Positions 16,935 to 23,147 of a stretch of DNA of 49,166 nucleotides are shown piece by piece (within the stretch, counting starts at the first letter, position 1; every line of letters starts with the position of its first letter). Below the pieces are notes generated by a model. The model had not been told where the DNA came from. It ran no database searches and saw only the letters and a list, made by a program, of their open reading frames with translations. Both the position numbers and the translations under genes were made by a program. Location of the stretch: positions 1 through 49,166 of the forward strand of contig CALUII010000010.1 in NCBI GenBank assembly GCA_944320665.1, written 5' to 3'. This DNA is from an uncultured Alistipes sp. Lineage in GTDB: Bacteria; Bacteroidota; Bacteroidia; Bacteroidales; Rikenellaceae.

Positions 16935-16973
16935 GCCGCCGATGGTTCTCCGACCATCGGCGGCTCGCATTTT
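16935..16973 (+). terminator. Second hairpin downstream of purB, abutting a sigma-54 promoter
   Basis: Perfect 11-bp stem (16935-16945 with 16954-16964), then TCGCA and four T (16970-16973). It resembles an intrinsic terminator for purB. The T run overlaps the upstream edge of the first sigma-54-type promoter. Confidence 0.6.
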
Positions 16974-16988
16974 GGCACAAGGCTTGCT
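16972..16988 (+). promoter_or_regulatory. Sigma-54-type promoter of RNA unit 1
   Basis: TTGGCAC-N5-TTGCT with GG at 16974-16975 and GC at 16986-16987, exactly 10 nt apart as RpoN promoters require. The predicted start is about 16998, where strong similarity to unit 2 begins. Confidence 0.72.
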
Positions 16989-16997
16989 CCTCTCGGG

Positions 16998-17123
16998 GCA
17001 ACTGATGTGTCAGAACCACACAGTGAGGTTTCTTCATTTATTAAGTTTGGGTTAGTAGTTTTGCGGAGACACCCGTCTCCGGAGGCGGCAGGCAATCGCG
17101 ACGATTCCCTGCCGTTTTTTTTT
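16998..17123 (+). ncRNA. Candidate structured small RNA, unit 1
   Basis: Predicted transcript of about 125 nt. Elements in order: a 5' hairpin (ACTG-A-TGT pairing with ACACAGT), a U-rich single strand containing TTTCTTCATTT, a hairpin GGAGAC-ACCC-GTCTCC (17065-17080), and a terminator stem (17086-17114 with one central mismatch) followed by nine T (17115-17123). Compared with unit 2, the differences in the stems keep pairing and the loop indels are of 1 or 2 nt, so no protein is conserved. It could act as a trans-acting sRNA or as the first of two tandem leaders for the downstream permease. Boundaries are predicted, not measured. Confidence 0.7.
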
Positions 17124-17141
17124 GCCCGCGTGCCGCATATT

Positions 17142-17158
17142 TTGGCACGGCTCTTGCT
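17142..17158 (+). promoter_or_regulatory. Sigma-54-type promoter of RNA unit 2
   Basis: TTGGCACG-GCTC-TTGCT, a full match to the RpoN consensus, with GG (17144-17145) and GC (17156-17157) 10 nt apart. Predicted start about 17168. Confidence 0.75.
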
Positions 17159-17167
17159 GCGTTTGAG

Positions 17168-17290
17168 GGCAACTGATGTGTCGAACCACACAGTGAGGTT
17201 TCTTCATTTATTTAAAGTTTGGGTTAATAGTTTCAGGAGGTCCCACGCCTCCGAGGCAGCAGGCAATCGCGACGATTCCCTGCTGTTTTT
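17168..17290 (+). ncRNA. Candidate structured small RNA, unit 2
   Basis: Predicted transcript of about 122 nt, paralogous to unit 1. The 5' hairpin is kept with a loop one base shorter. The second hairpin is GGAGGT-CCCAC-GCCTCC, where two base pairs differ from unit 1 yet still pair. The terminator stem (17257-17263 with 17279-17285) carries an A-T pair where unit 1 has G-C. Only five T (17286-17290) follow, so termination may be leakier than in unit 1 and could allow read-through into the permease that starts 98 nt downstream. Confidence 0.7.
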
Positions 17291-17387
17291 CGTTTGGTCC
17301 CGCCCGGACTTCGCTTTTCCCCTGCCCACCACACACTCCGGCACGAAAACTGCGCAACGAAACCCCGTAAAATCAACACCACGGACC

Positions 17388-19009: not shown

Positions 19010-19495
19010 TCAATCGTCGTAATCGACCAGCGCCTCGTGCTTCGTGTCGAACTTGAGTTCGACCGAATTGTTCAGCTCCACCTCCCAGAGACGAGCCGTG
19101 CGCTTGAGTTCGCGCAGCGTTGTGCCGGCAAAATTGCGGTCGACAAACTCGCGGATCGAGACAGGCACCAACTCGGCCGGAACCGGCAACTGGCGGCTCT
19201 TCACCTCGAACCACTCGCCGTTGCCGCGGAAGGAGACCTGGCTGCCGTCGGCAAAGAGCACCGTATAGGTAATCCGCAACTCGTCCAACTCCTTGCGGAC
19301 CACGACGGCCGACTCGTCGGGATAGTAGGTTGCCAGGAAACTTTGCGCCTCGGCGGGCAGTTCGTGTGCCGGCACGCTCTTCTTGTACTCCACGGCCCAG
19401 GCCGCAGCCAACAGGCCCCCGAGCACCACGACCGCCAGCAGACTCCACATCCACCAGGTCGGTCGGCGACCCGATTTTTTCGTTGCGTCAGTCAT
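19010..19495 (-). CDS. PepSY-like protein with N-terminal membrane anchor
   Basis: 161 residues, ATG at 19495 (MTDATKKSGRRPTWWMWSLL). Unlike its three neighbours it has an uncleaved-looking transmembrane segment at about 14-36. The outside part holds two PepSY-like half repeats: LPAEAQSFLATYYPDE with YTVLFADGSQVSFRGNGEWF, then FVDRNFAGTTLRELKRTARL with WEVELNNSVELKFD. PepSY-like domains (PF11396 type) are extracytoplasmic and are thought to bind or inhibit peptidases or sense envelope state; the role here is unknown. The start overlaps the upstream paralogue by 8 bp. Confidence 0.8.
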   Translation of the reverse strand: MTDATKKSGRRPTWWMWSLLAVVVLGGLLAAAWAVEYKKSVPAHELPAEAQSFLATYYPDESAVVVRKELDELRITYTVLFADGSQVSFRGNGEWFEVKSRQLPVPAELVPVSIREFVDRNFAGTTLRELKRTARLWEVELNNSVELKFDTKHEALVDYDD

Positions 19496-19931
19496 CGTAT
19501 CCAATCACATTGAATTTCGTATCGAACTTGATCTCCAGCCCGTTCGAGAGCTCCACCTCCCACGTGTAGGCATTGCGCTCGATCTTGCGCACGTACTGCC
19601 CCGGATAGTTGCTCCCGGCCACAAAATCGGCAATGGGTTTCGGCACGATCGAGGCCGGAACGGCGTTGTAGCGGCACTCGACGCTCGACCATTCGCCGTC
19701 GGTCCGGAAATCGACCTCCGTACGATCCGTATAGGTCACCTCGTACTCCGAGCCCACGAACTTCGGATCCTCCACGGCAAAGGCCAGCGTGAGCTCCTTG
19801 AAATGGGCCGCCAGGAACTCCTGCGCCTTGGCCGGCAACTGGTTGAGTTCGATCGGGCGTTCGCGTCCGTCGGCCTGGGCCGACGCAATACCTGCACACA
19901 GCAGGACAACGGCAAAAAGAAGCTTTTTCAT
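19488..19931 (-). CDS. Periplasmic PepSY-like protein
   Basis: 147 residues, ATG at 19931 (MKKLLFAVVLLCAGIASAQA), a cleavable signal peptide ending near AQA. It has two PepSY-like half repeats (LPAKAQEFLAAHFKEL/YEVTYTDRTEVDFRTDGEWS and FVAGSNYPGQYVRKIER/WEVELSNGLEIKFD). The second half closely matches the neighbouring paralogue, pointing to local duplication. It is the third gene of the four-gene array. Confidence 0.82.
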   Translation of the reverse strand: MKKLLFAVVLLCAGIASAQADGRERPIELNQLPAKAQEFLAAHFKELTLAFAVEDPKFVGSEYEVTYTDRTEVDFRTDGEWSSVECRYNAVPASIVPKPIADFVAGSNYPGQYVRKIERNAYTWEVELSNGLEIKFDTKFNVIGYDD

Positions 19932-19987
19932 AGTCAAATCGTTTTTAAGGTTTATTCAATCGTTTTTTCACGTGCACCGCCCGCCAC

Positions 19988-20437
19988 TCAGCGCGTGCGG
20001 TCTTCGCGGATAAAGGTTCCGTCGGACGAATAGATCAGATCGATTCCGTTGTTGAGCGAGACATCGAAACCACCCAGTTCACGCTCGACCTTGTAGGCCA
20101 CGGCATCGGGATAATTCTCGGCCATGTGCACCTCGATGGCCGGCAGCAGGATGCCGTCGGGCAGCACACCGTAGGGACAATCGATGCTCTCCCAGACGCC
20201 CCCCTCGTTGAATTTCAACTCCGTGGCATCGCTCAGCAACACCTTGTACTCCGTGCGGCCGTCGTCCTTCTCGCGCTCGGCATAGACCACCGTACGATTC
20301 GGGAAGTAGGTCTCGACGAACGACTGTGCCGTCTCGGGCAGCGAACTGTACCGGATCGACTTCTCGTCATCGCTGCATGCACTCCAGACGAAGAGGCTCA
20401 GCAGCATACTCATCAGTAAAAAGGCTCGTTTTTTCAT
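19988..20437 (-). CDS. PepSY-like lipoprotein
   Basis: 149 residues. The signal peptide ends in a lipobox (SLFVWSACSDDEKS): the acylated Cys is at about 21 and is followed by S-D-D-E, which in Bacteroidota favours surface export. The domain contains LPETAQSFVETYFPNR, YKVLLSDATELKFNEGGVWE and a second half (HMAENYPDAVAYKVEREL). It is the only lipoprotein of the array and its last strand ends in a basic tail (REDRTR). Confidence 0.82.
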   Translation of the reverse strand: MKKRAFLLMSMLLSLFVWSACSDDEKSIRYSSLPETAQSFVETYFPNRTVVYAEREKDDGRTEYKVLLSDATELKFNEGGVWESIDCPYGVLPDGILLPAIEVHMAENYPDAVAYKVERELGGFDVSLNNGIDLIYSSDGTFIREDRTR

Positions 20438-20518
20438 CGTTTTTCTCCTCCATTTTTTTCAGATTAAACATACACACGTGCACCGCCGGTCCTCCGCTCC
20501 GACCGCGCGAACTGCGGG

Positions 20519-20959
20519 TCAATCGATGTCGATCAACTTCAGTTCGGCATCGAACTTCAGCGTGATGCGATTCGACAACTGCACCTCGTATCCGCGGCGT
20601 TCGGCCCGTTCGATCTTCATCACGGGCACGTCGCGGTACAACTCCCCTACCTTCTGTCGGATTGCCTCGGGAATCAGATCGTCCGGCACCGCGACACTGC
20701 GGCAGGCTATTTCGACCCAATCGCCCCGACGGTCAAACTCGAGCTTCGTCCCGTCGGTCAGCACCATCTCGTAGCGCGTCTCGAACCACTCGCTGTCGAC
20801 CTTCGCCAGCGCGACCTTCATCTCGGAGAAGTAGGTCCGGAGCAGACTTTGTGCCCGCGCGGGCATCTGCCCCGGGTCGATGGCGCGATCCCGATCGGCA
20901 CGCGCCGTCGAGACGCCGCACAGGAACAGGGCCAGACAAAGAATCATCCATTTTTTCAT
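20519..20959 (-). CDS. Periplasmic PepSY-like protein, first of the array
   Basis: 146 residues with a cleavable signal peptide (MKKWMILCLALFLCGVSTARA). Half repeats are visible as MPARAQSLLRTYFSEM/YEMVLTDGTKLEFDRRGDWV and KVGELYRDVPVMKIERAERR/YEVQLSNRITLKFD. It lies directly behind a promoter whose upstream element is nearly identical to that of the two-component operon, so it is a likely direct target of the response regulator at 22461-23147. Confidence 0.82.
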   Translation of the reverse strand: MKKWMILCLALFLCGVSTARADRDRAIDPGQMPARAQSLLRTYFSEMKVALAKVDSEWFETRYEMVLTDGTKLEFDRRGDWVEIACRSVAVPDDLIPEAIRQKVGELYRDVPVMKIERAERRGYEVQLSNRITLKFDAELKLIDID

Positions 20960-21174: not shown

Positions 21175-22446
21175 TCACGGCCAACGGACCGTGAAACGAT
21201 GTCGGCCCGACTCGTAGCGATACGCCACCTCCAGCGCATAGCGCTCGGCCACCGCATGGACCAGAGCCAGGCCCAGTCCCGTTGATCCTTCGGCCGAAGA
21301 TTCACGATGGAACCGGTCGAAGAGGTGTTTCGTATCGAGCGGGCGGTCGCCGTCGTTCTCCACGCAGAGGCTACGTCCTTCAATCCGGATGCAGATCGAG
21401 CCCCCTTCGGGCGTATGACGGTAGGCGTTACGCAACAGATTGGTCACCAACACCGAGGCCAGCGATTCGTTCATCCGCACGACAAAGCGCCCGGGCAACT
21501 CCATCCGCACCTGCAGACGACGCGTGGCAAAAACCTCATCGTACAAGGCCTGCTCATCGCGCAACATCGCCACCAGATCGACCTCCGAACAGTCGGGAAA
21601 TTGATCGTTCTCGATCTTCGTGAGCAACAGCAACGTCTTGTTGAGCCGCACGAGACGGTTCAACGTCTGCTTCATCTGCATCACCTCCCCCATCTGCTCC
21701 TCGGTCAGCTCCGTGTGGTTGAGCAGCCAATCCATCCGCCCGCCCAGCACGGCCAACGGAGTCTGCAACTCGTGCGAAGCATTGCCGATGAACTGATTCT
21801 GCCGTTCGAAGACCTCCTCCGAACGGTTCACGGCCTGCTGCGCCGCAACGTGCAGCCGCCGGAATTCGGTCACGGCCGTCTCGGTCGGAACGAAACGCAT
21901 GCGGCTGCCGGGCGTATAGCGGTCGAGCCAGCGCAACAGCTCGTAGAGCGGCCGCATGCTGCGATGCAGCACCCAGAGCGTCACACCGACGATCGTCACG
22001 AGCAGCAGCATGTAGAGCAGTACGATCCACCCGAGGATCGTGCGCAACAGATCCTCACGCTCGAATGTCGGGGTAGCCACGCGCAATTCATAATAGGCTC
22101 CGCCGTCGTCGCGGAAGAGCATCACCAACACACGGGCCGGCTCCGTCTCACGCTTCTCGGGGATGTAGACCTCGGCATCGTAGTAGTCCAGCCGCGGACG
22201 AAGCGAAACATACTCGGCATCGACCGGTGTGATCGTATAACTGTTATTCGACCCGGAGTTGGGCTGCGGCAGCGGCTCGCCCGCCAGCATGCGGACGATG
22301 ATCCCCTCGGCATAATCCTCGAGGGCATCATCCGTCTCGTCGTTGATCTCGTCGACGAGCGTGAAGTAGAAGAGCCCGGCCCACAGCGCGAGCAGCGGCA
22401 GCAGGATCAGCGACAAACGCAGCGCTATGCGTGTAATGAGTTTCAT
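21175..22446 (-). CDS. Sensor histidine kinase (OmpR-type partner)
   Basis: 423 residues. Two transmembrane helices (about 9-30 and 138-160) bracket a periplasmic sensor of about 105 residues with no recognised fold. A HAMP-like segment follows (SMRPLYELLRWLDRY). The H-box is NASHELQTPLAVL with the phosphorylated H225; the ATPase has the N-box NLLRNAYRHTPEGG and the G2 box GSTGLGLALV. A short acidic G1 (CVENDGDRPL) is present. It lies 14 nt after the response regulator gene. The signal is unknown; envelope stress or a metal/peptide cue would fit its PepSY targets. Confidence 0.93.
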   Translation of the reverse strand: MKLITRIALRLSLILLPLLALWAGLFYFTLVDEINDETDDALEDYAEGIIVRMLAGEPLPQPNSGSNNSYTITPVDAEYVSLRPRLDYYDAEVYIPEKRETEPARVLVMLFRDDGGAYYELRVATPTFEREDLLRTILGWIVLLYMLLLVTIVGVTLWVLHRSMRPLYELLRWLDRYTPGSRMRFVPTETAVTEFRRLHVAAQQAVNRSEEVFERQNQFIGNASHELQTPLAVLGGRMDWLLNHTELTEEQMGEVMQMKQTLNRLVRLNKTLLLLTKIENDQFPDCSEVDLVAMLRDEQALYDEVFATRRLQVRMELPGRFVVRMNESLASVLVTNLLRNAYRHTPEGGSICIRIEGRSLCVENDGDRPLDTKHLFDRFHRESSAEGSTGLGLALVHAVAERYALEVAYRYESGRHRFTVRWP

Positions 22447-22460
22447 CGTGCAGGACGGGT

Positions 22461-23147
22461 TCAGGCCCGGGCGGCGGGCACAAGCAGTTTGTAACCGAAA
22501 CCGTAGACGGCGCGGATCTCGATCGTCGCGCCGGCATCGGAGAGTTTGCGGCGCAGGTTCTTCATCTGCGCATAGACGAACTGGAAGTTGTCCGCCTGGT
22601 CGACGTGGTCGCCCCAGACGGCCTCTGCCAGCACGGCCTTGTCGACCAGATAGCCGGGACGCTGCATGAAATAGGCCAGGATATCAAACTCCTTGCGCAG
22701 CAGCGGCAACTCGACGCCGGCAACCTCGACGCGTCGTTTTTCGGGATCGAGGCTCACGTTCCCCCACGTAAATTCACGCTGCCCGTCGCGTCCGCGGCGG
22801 GCCACGCTCCGGATGCGCGCCGAAAGTTCCATCAGATGGAACGGTTTGGGCAGATAGTCGTCCGCTCCCAACTCCAGACCGAGCACCTTGTCCTCGAGGG
22901 CATCCTTGGCCGAGAGGATAATCACGCGTTCGGTCCGTCGCTGCGCCTTGAGCGATTCGAGCAGTTTGAGTCCGTTGCCGTCGGGCAACATGATGTCGAG
23001 CAGAACACAGTCATAGGCATAACTCCCGAGACGGGACTCGGCTTCGGCATAGGTCGAAGCCGTCTCGACGACGTGCTGTTCGTTCACCAGCGTCCGCGTC
23101 ATCAACTCCCGGAGCGAGGGTTCATCCTCCACAATCAGAATCTTCAT
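22461..23147 (-). CDS. OmpR/PhoB-family response regulator
   Basis: 228 residues. Receiver domain with D51 as phosphoacceptor (CVLLDIMLPDGNG), S79 in ILSAKD and K101 (YLPKPFHLME). The C-terminal winged helix ends DNFQFVYAQMKNLRRKL and VYGFGYKLL. It is the first gene of the pair. Its own promoter carries the TTTCA-N6-TTTCA element also found before the PepSY array, consistent with autoregulation. Confidence 0.95.
   Translation of the reverse strand: MKILIVEDEPSLRELMTRTLVNEQHVVETASTYAEAESRLGSYAYDCVLLDIMLPDGNGLKLLESLKAQRRTERVIILSAKDALEDKVLGLELGADDYLPKPFHLMELSARIRSVARRGRDGQREFTWGNVSLDPEKRRVEVAGVELPLLRKEFDILAYFMQRPGYLVDKAVLAEAVWGDHVDQADNFQFVYAQMKNLRRKLSDAGATIEIRAVYGFGYKLLVPAARA

Follow-up and report, generated by a model that had tools for sequence, protein, structure and literature searches.

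Tandem putative sigma-54-driven small RNA genes of Rikenellaceae share a conserved core that may pair before SusC-type start codons

In enterobacteria, the alternative sigma factor sigmaE drives transcription of RybB and MicA, small RNAs that repress the mRNAs of outer-membrane proteins. In Bacteroides, FopS is described as repressing translation of susC-like mRNAs near their start codons; it has a single-stranded 5' stretch and a terminator, is made from sigma-ABfr promoters, responds to bile salts, and binds RbpB, as does GibS (passages of PMC11697453). GibS pairs at start codons by means of a long unstructured 5' part, according to the account in PMC7366714. The logic of RybB and sigmaE is mentioned in PMC2680268, and PMC9723704 describes for Flavobacterium psychrophilum a sigma-54 motif that precedes chaperone, protease, gliding, and exported-protein genes as well as the putative RNA Rfp36.

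The 49-kb window (the whole stretch of DNA analysed here) contains two head-to-tail units spaced 170-172 nt apart, in keeping with the period of about 170 bp given in the initial annotation. In each unit, a TGGCAC-N5-TTGCT box is followed in the 5' to 3' direction by two hairpins with an open stretch between them and then by a third hairpin bearing a T tract. The box had been assigned to each unit beforehand, and the two boxes, TGGCACAAGGCTTGCT and TGGCACGGCTCTTGCT, were indeed the only exact matches to TGGCACNNNNNTTGCW in the window, where 26 matches with up to two mismatches occurred versus 20.9 expected. The whole 1.84-Mb genome holds three exact matches, two being these boxes and the third lying inside long open frames. 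Searches of this genome, one of them with the covariance model R1 described below, revealed no copy of the unit beyond these two. Indels of 1 and 2 nt between the copies had been attributed to loops; both are real, but the 2-nt indel sits in the conserved core, where copy 2 has GTTAATAG in place of the GTTAGTAG of copy 1, and its T/A stretch is 2 nt longer. The base-pair changes listed for the two copies could be read from the predicted folds of both.

The reading we favor, with moderate confidence, is that these are tandem sigma-54-driven sRNA genes whose core acts as an antisense repressor of SusC-type translation. It goes beyond the initial annotation, in which no function was proposed. The locus would carry a pair of genes encoding the same small noncoding RNA, ~123 nt long. 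Sigma-54 RNA polymerase, with opening by an NtrC-type activator, would initiate at ~16998 and ~17169, and its product would form a 5' hairpin and, after ~37 nt of open core, a small hairpin followed by an intrinsic terminator. As the antisense seed, the core would pair through its AAGTTTGGGTTAGTAG half with leader sequence immediately preceding the target's start codon, and its TTTCTTCAT half would perhaps add pairing at the start codon itself. The main targets would be mRNAs of SusC-type TonB-linked outer-membrane transporters, whose translation initiation would be blocked by seed pairing, as with FopS and GibS in Bacteroides. We infer that both copies are transcribed and that the RNA represses, and likewise the activator and the signal involved.

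By computation, the units belong to a gene family with a conserved promoter, covarying helices, and an invariant core, and RpoN and activators are present. The alignment of homologues, A1, from which R1 was built, was assembled after leaving out two duplicate loci and four loci with core copies in odd contexts (L039, L040, L042, and L043). From the 38 loci kept, L035 and both copies of L026 were then dropped to give 35 sequences, and the start of L036 was set by hand. One further locus, consisting of a 3' half, had no sigma-54 box when the loci were gathered. The consensus structure has three helices with 23 pairs, and two-sided changes were observed in 19 of these (3/4 pairs in helix 1, 4/4 in helix 2, and 12/15 in helix 3). 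In A1, 95.4% of cells were paired, compared to 43-60% when the partners were slid as a control, and 138 cells carried two-sided changes, compared to 2-18 in the slid control. None of 500 shuffles of A1 reached the observed covariation score and five reached the number of further pair types, counts that are not a probability since the sequences are related. Pairing is retained in the homologous copies, on which the structured RNA proposed in the initial annotation depended.

The folding energies of the two copies were low relative to shuffled sequences (z -3.36 with 1/200 as low, and z -2.13 with 7/200). The fold without the terminator was unremarkable in both (z -1.25 and -0.19), and the evidence for the other helices is therefore their covariation rather than their energy. 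The helix 1 stretch of copy 1 is paired otherwise in the single-sequence fold. A simple terminator scan of the window listed neither terminator, which we read as owing to the mismatch inside the stem. Among 98 downstream regions, a GNRA-type loop over four pairs and a C.C mismatch was found in 43 of 75 hairpins, a rough count, as the hairpin script picked up some second-hairpin loops as well. The core of ~37 nt that separates helices 1 and 2 is nearly invariant among the 35 sequences while the remainder of the RNA is variable. The T/A run in the middle of the core varies in length, including between the two window copies, and the core may therefore consist of two modules.

Table 1 Features of the two sRNA units in the window
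Feature	Position	Strand	Basis
Sigma-54 -24/-12 promoter, copy 1, TGGCAC-N5-TTGCT	16973..16988	+	Exact match; box conserved in homologous loci
sRNA copy 1, putative transcript	16998..17121	+	R1 match 16998-17120, 105.7 bits, copy 1 being among the 35 sequences that built R1; start (16998) placed from the -12 element
Helix 1, copy 1 (5' hairpin, bulged A)	17002..17023	+	By eye from alignment
Conserved core (proposed seed), copy 1	17026..17062	+	Near-invariant in 35 aligned sequences; SusC-start pairing
Helix 2, copy 1	17064..17081	+	Predicted fold; all four modelled pairs with two-sided change
Terminator hairpin and T tract, copy 1	17084..17123	+	Predicted fold; helix 3 covariation
Sigma-54 -24/-12 promoter, copy 2, TGGCAC-N5-TTGCT	17143..17158	+	Exact match
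sRNA copy 2, putative transcript	17169..17291	+	R1 match 17169-17291, 103.4 bits, copy 2 also being among the 35 sequences that built R1
Helix 1, copy 2	17173..17193	+	By eye from alignment
Conserved core (proposed seed), copy 2	17196..17233	+	Alignment; SusC-start pairing z -2.74
Helix 2, copy 2	17236..17252	+	Predicted fold, alignment
Terminator hairpin and T tract, copy 2	17253..17290	+	Predicted fold, alignment

The -24/-12 box, with its GG and GC 10 nt apart, was then sought within at most 120 nt upstream of the core in 103 non-redundant loci, all with an intact core. A box with up to two mismatches preceded the core in 98 of these, compared to ~8 for dinucleotide shuffles and 13 of 101 for the stretch further upstream; with up to one mismatch, the counts were 86, 0.65, and 7, respectively. 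Boxes with 0, 1, 2, 3, and 4 mismatches occurred at 47, 39, 12, 4, and 1 loci, whereas the controls gave 0, 0.65, and 7 (shuffles) and 2, 5, and 6 of 101 (further upstream) for 0, 1, and 2 mismatches. Among the 98 loci with up to two mismatches, the distance from the start of the box to the core is 29 to 120 nt, with 50-61 the commonest, and because of this range the RNA would start almost at the core in a few loci and after a longer leader in others. Since the distance from start to core varies, and helix 1 is lost, replaced, or different in many odd loci among the homologues, the minimal unit is the promoter, core, small hairpin, and terminator.

RpoN, whose absence the initial annotation had held to count against its proposal, is encoded once in the window's own genome. 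The rpoN gene was found in 255 of 268 Rikenellaceae genomes and in 109 of the 110 good ones; being nearly universal in the family, its presence was uninformative as a test of the sigma-54 reading. Enhancer-binding proteins, which the annotation had suggested seeking, are represented in the same genome by three proteins with a strong match to PF00158 (sigma-54 interaction domain), two having a receiver domain and two a Fis-type helix-turn-helix; three other PF00158 matches were weak. The proposal of an RpoN-controlled sRNA pair thus accords with a promoter box kept at 98 of 103 loci, with the covarying helices, and with a genome that encodes RpoN and activators. Genome-wide, 51 sites had at most one mismatch versus 61 for a control pattern, and for this reason no sigma-54 regulon was drawn. 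Two one-mismatch boxes in the window's own genome, L244 (G000:C14:19926-19941) and L245 (G000:C14:22414-22429), are found 44 and 130 nt upstream of open frames of secreted or lipoprotein-like type; they may be due to chance, since long open frames cover them and the number of sites is at the control level. Immediately upstream of promoter 1 in the window is a perfect 12-bp inverted repeat (16935-16964). Several relatives have unrelated hairpins, some with T runs, at the matching position, and the repeat is therefore probably the terminator of the upstream gene rather than an activator site.

By BLAST, the unit was found in 36 of 61 genomes, these being 36 of the 37 from the window's genus (its own included) and none of the 24 from other families. 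The initial annotation had suggested searching other Rikenellaceae with a covariance model, and R1, under stricter filters that lose weak matches, did match 237 of 268 such genomes (103 of 110 good ones), representing 21 of 22 genera. In nearly all genera, genomes carry the RNA gene in one to five copies. The core pattern TTTATTTAAGTTTGGGTTAGTA, with up to three mismatches, was present in 236 of the 268 genomes. Among 393 genomes across the order, searched with the same filters and the same rough E-values, the strong R1 matches were the five Rikenellaceae members. The core pattern was found in 43 of this sample, and the 38 outside Rikenellaceae all had exactly three mismatches, a level also reached by a reversed control pattern. 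A scan of named genomes gave at least 119 matching stretches; among the 80 titles listed, 79 are Alistipes, Tidjanibacter, or Rikenellaceae, and the remaining one is given only as a Bacteroidales bacterium. In genus g43 (G243-G250), rpoN is present in 8/8 genomes and an R1 match in only 1/8, a loss or divergence of the RNA gene in this genus.

The genes neighboring the RNA differ between species and none dominates, the commonest cluster, which includes the purB-like gene of the window, being found at 14 loci of 108 entries. In the window itself, a row of four small secreted-protein-like genes (164, 149, 149, and 146 aa), paralogous in appearance by eye, lies on the minus strand at 19010-20959, adjoined by a response regulator and sensor kinase pair on the same strand at 21175-23147.

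Some loci have more than one unit or part of one; L105 and L112 each have two exact core matches, and other loci have a second, weaker R1 match nearby. In some species such weaker sRNA-like copies lie close to the locus, and this, together with the 3' half of the sRNA in two viral contigs, could indicate a repeated or mobile element conserved as DNA and without RNA function. We give this very little weight, given the presence of one to five copies in genomes of almost every genus, the two-sided pair changes, and the conserved promoter. The two viral contigs, identical in sequence around the sRNA 3' half, carry the second part of the core, the hairpin, and the terminator (L220:2892-3017 and L221:2191-2316; R1 64 bits). 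In some Alistipes (L138:2500-3400, L112:200-1500, and L123:2350-6500), the sRNA is followed by repeated units of ~300 nt having the same kind of terminator, and an inverted copy of a GTAGTTT(T)AGG... stretch flanks the terminator in, for example, L011 and L012. The ~300-nt units resemble a palindromic element that has the sRNA 3' half as its basis and is spreading. Perfect 22-nt copies of the core were also observed outside canonical sRNA genes in L040 (G017), L043 (G022), L042 (G025), and L039 (G029). One lies antisense in a gene leader, one follows an ABC-transporter-like gene, one a tRNA-like sequence, and one is part of an sRNA-like unit that lacks a recognisable sigma-54 box. The gene with the leader we take to be DUF3276-like, and the ABC-transporter-like and tRNA-like names are likewise our assumptions, made by eye.

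The reverse complement of the core, AAACTACTAACCCAAACTTAAATAAATGAAGAAACC, resembles a Bacteroidales translation start. As it reads AAATAAATGAAGAAACC, the minus strand might be the one that matters, either by beginning a leader peptide (Met-Lys-Lys-Pro) or by being an mRNA leader, and one genome does have a perfect 22-nt core copy in the leader of the presumed DUF3276-like gene (L040). The residues after MKKP differ, however, and several loci have an immediate stop; the orientation of the T tracts and sigma-54 boxes favors the plus strand, and indels separate the copies. We thus consider a role for the minus strand highly improbable.

The antisense reading was examined with start regions of SusC-type genes, taken as TIGR04056 proteins of five genomes (G000, G007, G023, G177, and G204). 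Of 60 loci, 55 were scored (four were without a start and one was at an edge), and 52 remained after removal of near-duplicates. The mean duplex energy of the core with the 55 regions was -15.95 versus -13.00 (sd 0.86) for shuffled cores, with 0/200 mononucleotide shuffles as low, and nine regions reached -20 or better versus 1.26 with shuffled cores. When dinucleotide shuffles were used with the 52 regions, the consensus core gave z -2.15 (8/300 as good), window copy 1 gave z -3.56 (0/100), and copy 2 had 1/100 shuffles as good. The pairing of the consensus core under dinucleotide shuffles, at z -2.0 to -2.15, is modest; FopS consensus, used as a positive control on the same regions, gave z -3.1 (0/100). 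With the control regions, the core gave z +0.5 for -120 to -50 and z -1.4 (9/150) for a stretch of SusC coding sequence, and the reversed core gave z -0.4. A first SusC set (28 scored of 30) compared to shuffled start regions had a mean z of only -0.57, and pairing was unremarkable at the eight SusC-like starts in the genome that contains the window (-9 to -20 kcal/mol).

The signal could be located within the RNA. Among nine 30-nt windows along copy 1, only those at +36 and +48 stood out (z -2.9 and -3.6; 0/40 each), and those from +12 and +24 had no SusC-pairing signal (4/40 and 10/40). The 3' half of the core gave z -1.93 (11/200) with the SusC regions and z -2.23 with the leader alone, whereas the 5' half, which would lie over the start codon, had no signal (z -0.89; 39/200). 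The evidence for pairing, modest as it is, accordingly lies just before the start codon, with no signal at the start codon itself. Only 2 of the 52 SusC genes start with ATGAAGAAA.

Starts of other genes were also considered. An antisense to all start regions was rejected as a description of the core: 511 regions gave -13.62 versus -13.52 (sd 0.53) for 30 mononucleotide-shuffled cores, the start-region profile did not favor the core (p 0.18), and 451 regions gave z -0.91 with dinucleotide shuffles (4/40). Among the 511 were sRNA loci in minus-strand reading, which made up the three top rows; the set of 451 excludes them. The shift in pairing energy of the consensus core was 1.57 for SusC regions, 0.96 for other ATGAA starts (n=136), and 0.28 kcal/mol for other starts (n=451); for copy 1, the corresponding shifts were 2.77, 1.01, and 0.43 kcal/mol. 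Regions at -18 kcal/mol or better made up 15/52 of the SusC set versus 37/451 of other starts (Fisher p 6e-5), a comparison for which the shuffles are the fairer test since the choice of start differs between the sets.

Relative to shuffles, pairing was also somewhat stronger at ATGAA starts of other genes (z -1.97 and -2.04), as might be expected if this were a sigma-54-driven antisense sRNA with main targets other than SusC, such as a regulator or an MFS transporter of the inner membrane. We consider this unlikely, though it is the most serious competitor to SusC-type targets. Of 20 near-antisense sites fetched, five are located 2-5 nt upstream of the ATG in one family of MFS transporters, and others abut other ATGs. 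Four of the five look like close relatives by their first residues, while the fifth is in genome G016 (L053), in a homologue only 47% identical. At these MFS starts (L053-L056 and L058, some Alistipes), the reverse complement of the core is present with 2-3 mismatches in 22. The MFS protein was found in 113 of 121 genomes, from which 30 loci were fetched; nine were without a usable frame (L093 of the window's own genome included), six were read in another frame, and 15 were readable. Nine of the readable starts paired with z -2 or lower relative to shuffled start regions, but eight of these nine are close relatives (86-100% identity), and among six more distant readable starts only one paired well. 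The MFS transporter was therefore rejected as a general target, good pairing falling mostly within a close clade; for the species of that clade it is not rejected. The largest pairing shift was that of the SusC regions rather than other starts.

CrcZ, which titrates Hfq/Crc, offers a different model for an invariant core. The core could be a protein-binding site by which the RNA titrates an RNA-binding protein. Near invariance over 37 nt exceeds what a single seed needs, half of the core is without a pairing signal, and by the rough count given above the terminator repeatedly has a GNRA-type loop over a C.C mismatch; moreover, FopS and GibS themselves bind RbpB (passages of PMC11697453). Titration nevertheless appears improbable to us, as no repeated short motif is visible in the core and pairing with SusC starts confined to the core would be unexpected under it. 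An antisense seed for SusC-type mRNAs remains our preferred reading of the core.

The initial annotation had not recognised the units as a described family, and our Rfam search agrees: no family exceeded its cut-off for the window units, and lax thresholds gave only matches far below cut-off. No report of the RNA was found in the open-licence literature, as covered by the best-ranked papers for broad queries and with most subscription papers lying outside, and Alistipes is absent from the main text of PMC11697453, PMC7366714, and PMC10994844. The FopS model RF04319 (cut-off 56 bits) had no match to the window at E<=10 or to four loci of two other genera at E<=5, and the GibS model RF04182 (cut-off 115 bits) had no match to the window. 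Outside Rikenellaceae, 12 genomes had weak R1 matches (30-47 bits) versus ~4 expected from the rough E-values. Among 13 such loci examined, two are FopS over the Rfam cut-off (62.4 and 60.3 bits, both from one genus), one scored 44.1 bits (E 7e-4) and one 29 bits (E 0.57) with the FopS model, and one was a weak GibS match (31.8 bits; E 0.38); the remaining loci had only weak, partly overlapping matches to other families. Direct alignment of FopS consensus with the core was not significant (local p 0.06 and 0.16; semi-global 0.19 and 0.34). A 76-nt FopS-like query had two weak partial matches to phages, and the FopS-like pattern occurred in viral contigs as one stretch, scored by neither Rfam (E<=1) nor R1.

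If the antisense reading is correct, sigma-54 in gut Bacteroidales would gain a strongly conserved output and, possibly, a direct link to the transporters for glycan uptake. The anti-SusC seed of Bacteroidaceae would, by suggestion, be part of a wider regulatory class with different promoters. Simple reporter tests are within reach, given how sharply the seed, promoter, and candidate target class are defined. More tentatively, and as a less likely reading, sigma-54 in Rikenellaceae might serve as sigmaE does in enterobacteria, an envelope or nutrient signal acting through an NtrC-type activator and the sRNA to shut off translation of the whole SusC family of importers at once, with the sRNA an ancient relative of FopS and GibS captured by a sigma-54 promoter. 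Were this true, one anti-SusC seed class would span Bacteroidales under at least three promoter types.

Qrr has an unstructured conserved pairing region, as is proposed for the Alistipes RNA. The Qrr RNAs of Vibrio, in several similar copies, are likewise associated with sigma-54 and an NtrC-type activator, but they need Hfq, serve quorum sensing, and belong to another phylum (described in PMC2680268). A further difference, assuming that a Qrr model is present in Rfam, is that the Alistipes RNA lacks a match over any Rfam cut-off. Qrr and GlmY are analogues of the Alistipes RNA in promoter class only. By analogy, if sigma-54 put a brake on SusC importers through this RNA, the logic would be that of sigmaE and RybB, while RybB and MicA are driven by sigmaE and are unrelated in sequence. 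Rfp36 of F. psychrophilum is from the same phylum and is a putative regulatory RNA with a predicted sigma-54 promoter; it differs in class (as presented in PMC9723704).

The closest likenesses are to FopS and GibS. FopS (RF04319) has a single-stranded seed and then a terminator with a GTGA-type loop, a layout also predicted for the Alistipes RNA, and pairing with susC-like starts was measured for FopS and computed for the Alistipes RNA (passages of PMC11697453). The FopS seed and the proposed seed of the Alistipes RNA both contain UUCAU and a U-rich/GGUUA part, and FopS-like sequence, too, is found in phage DNA. FopS is, however, ~65-70 nt in length with the seed at its 5' end, has 14 copies in B. 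thetaiotaomicron, and uses sigma-ABfr promoters (passages of PMC11697453), whereas the Alistipes RNA is ~123 nt, has a 5' hairpin first (in the window and A1), an extra hairpin after the seed, and a sigma-54 box, and is present in one to five copies. GibS (RF04182), of similar size at ~145 nt, has a terminator and a long unstructured conserved part pairing at starts, as proposed for the Alistipes RNA, but has two seeds (R1/R2), a 5'-end seed, and the promoter motif PM2, and is responsive to GlcNAc (described in PMC7366714). By the evidence here, the Alistipes RNA would work like FopS and GibS without being filed as a member, and it is read as a sigma-54-controlled relative or analogue of these RNAs that stands outside the FopS Rfam family.
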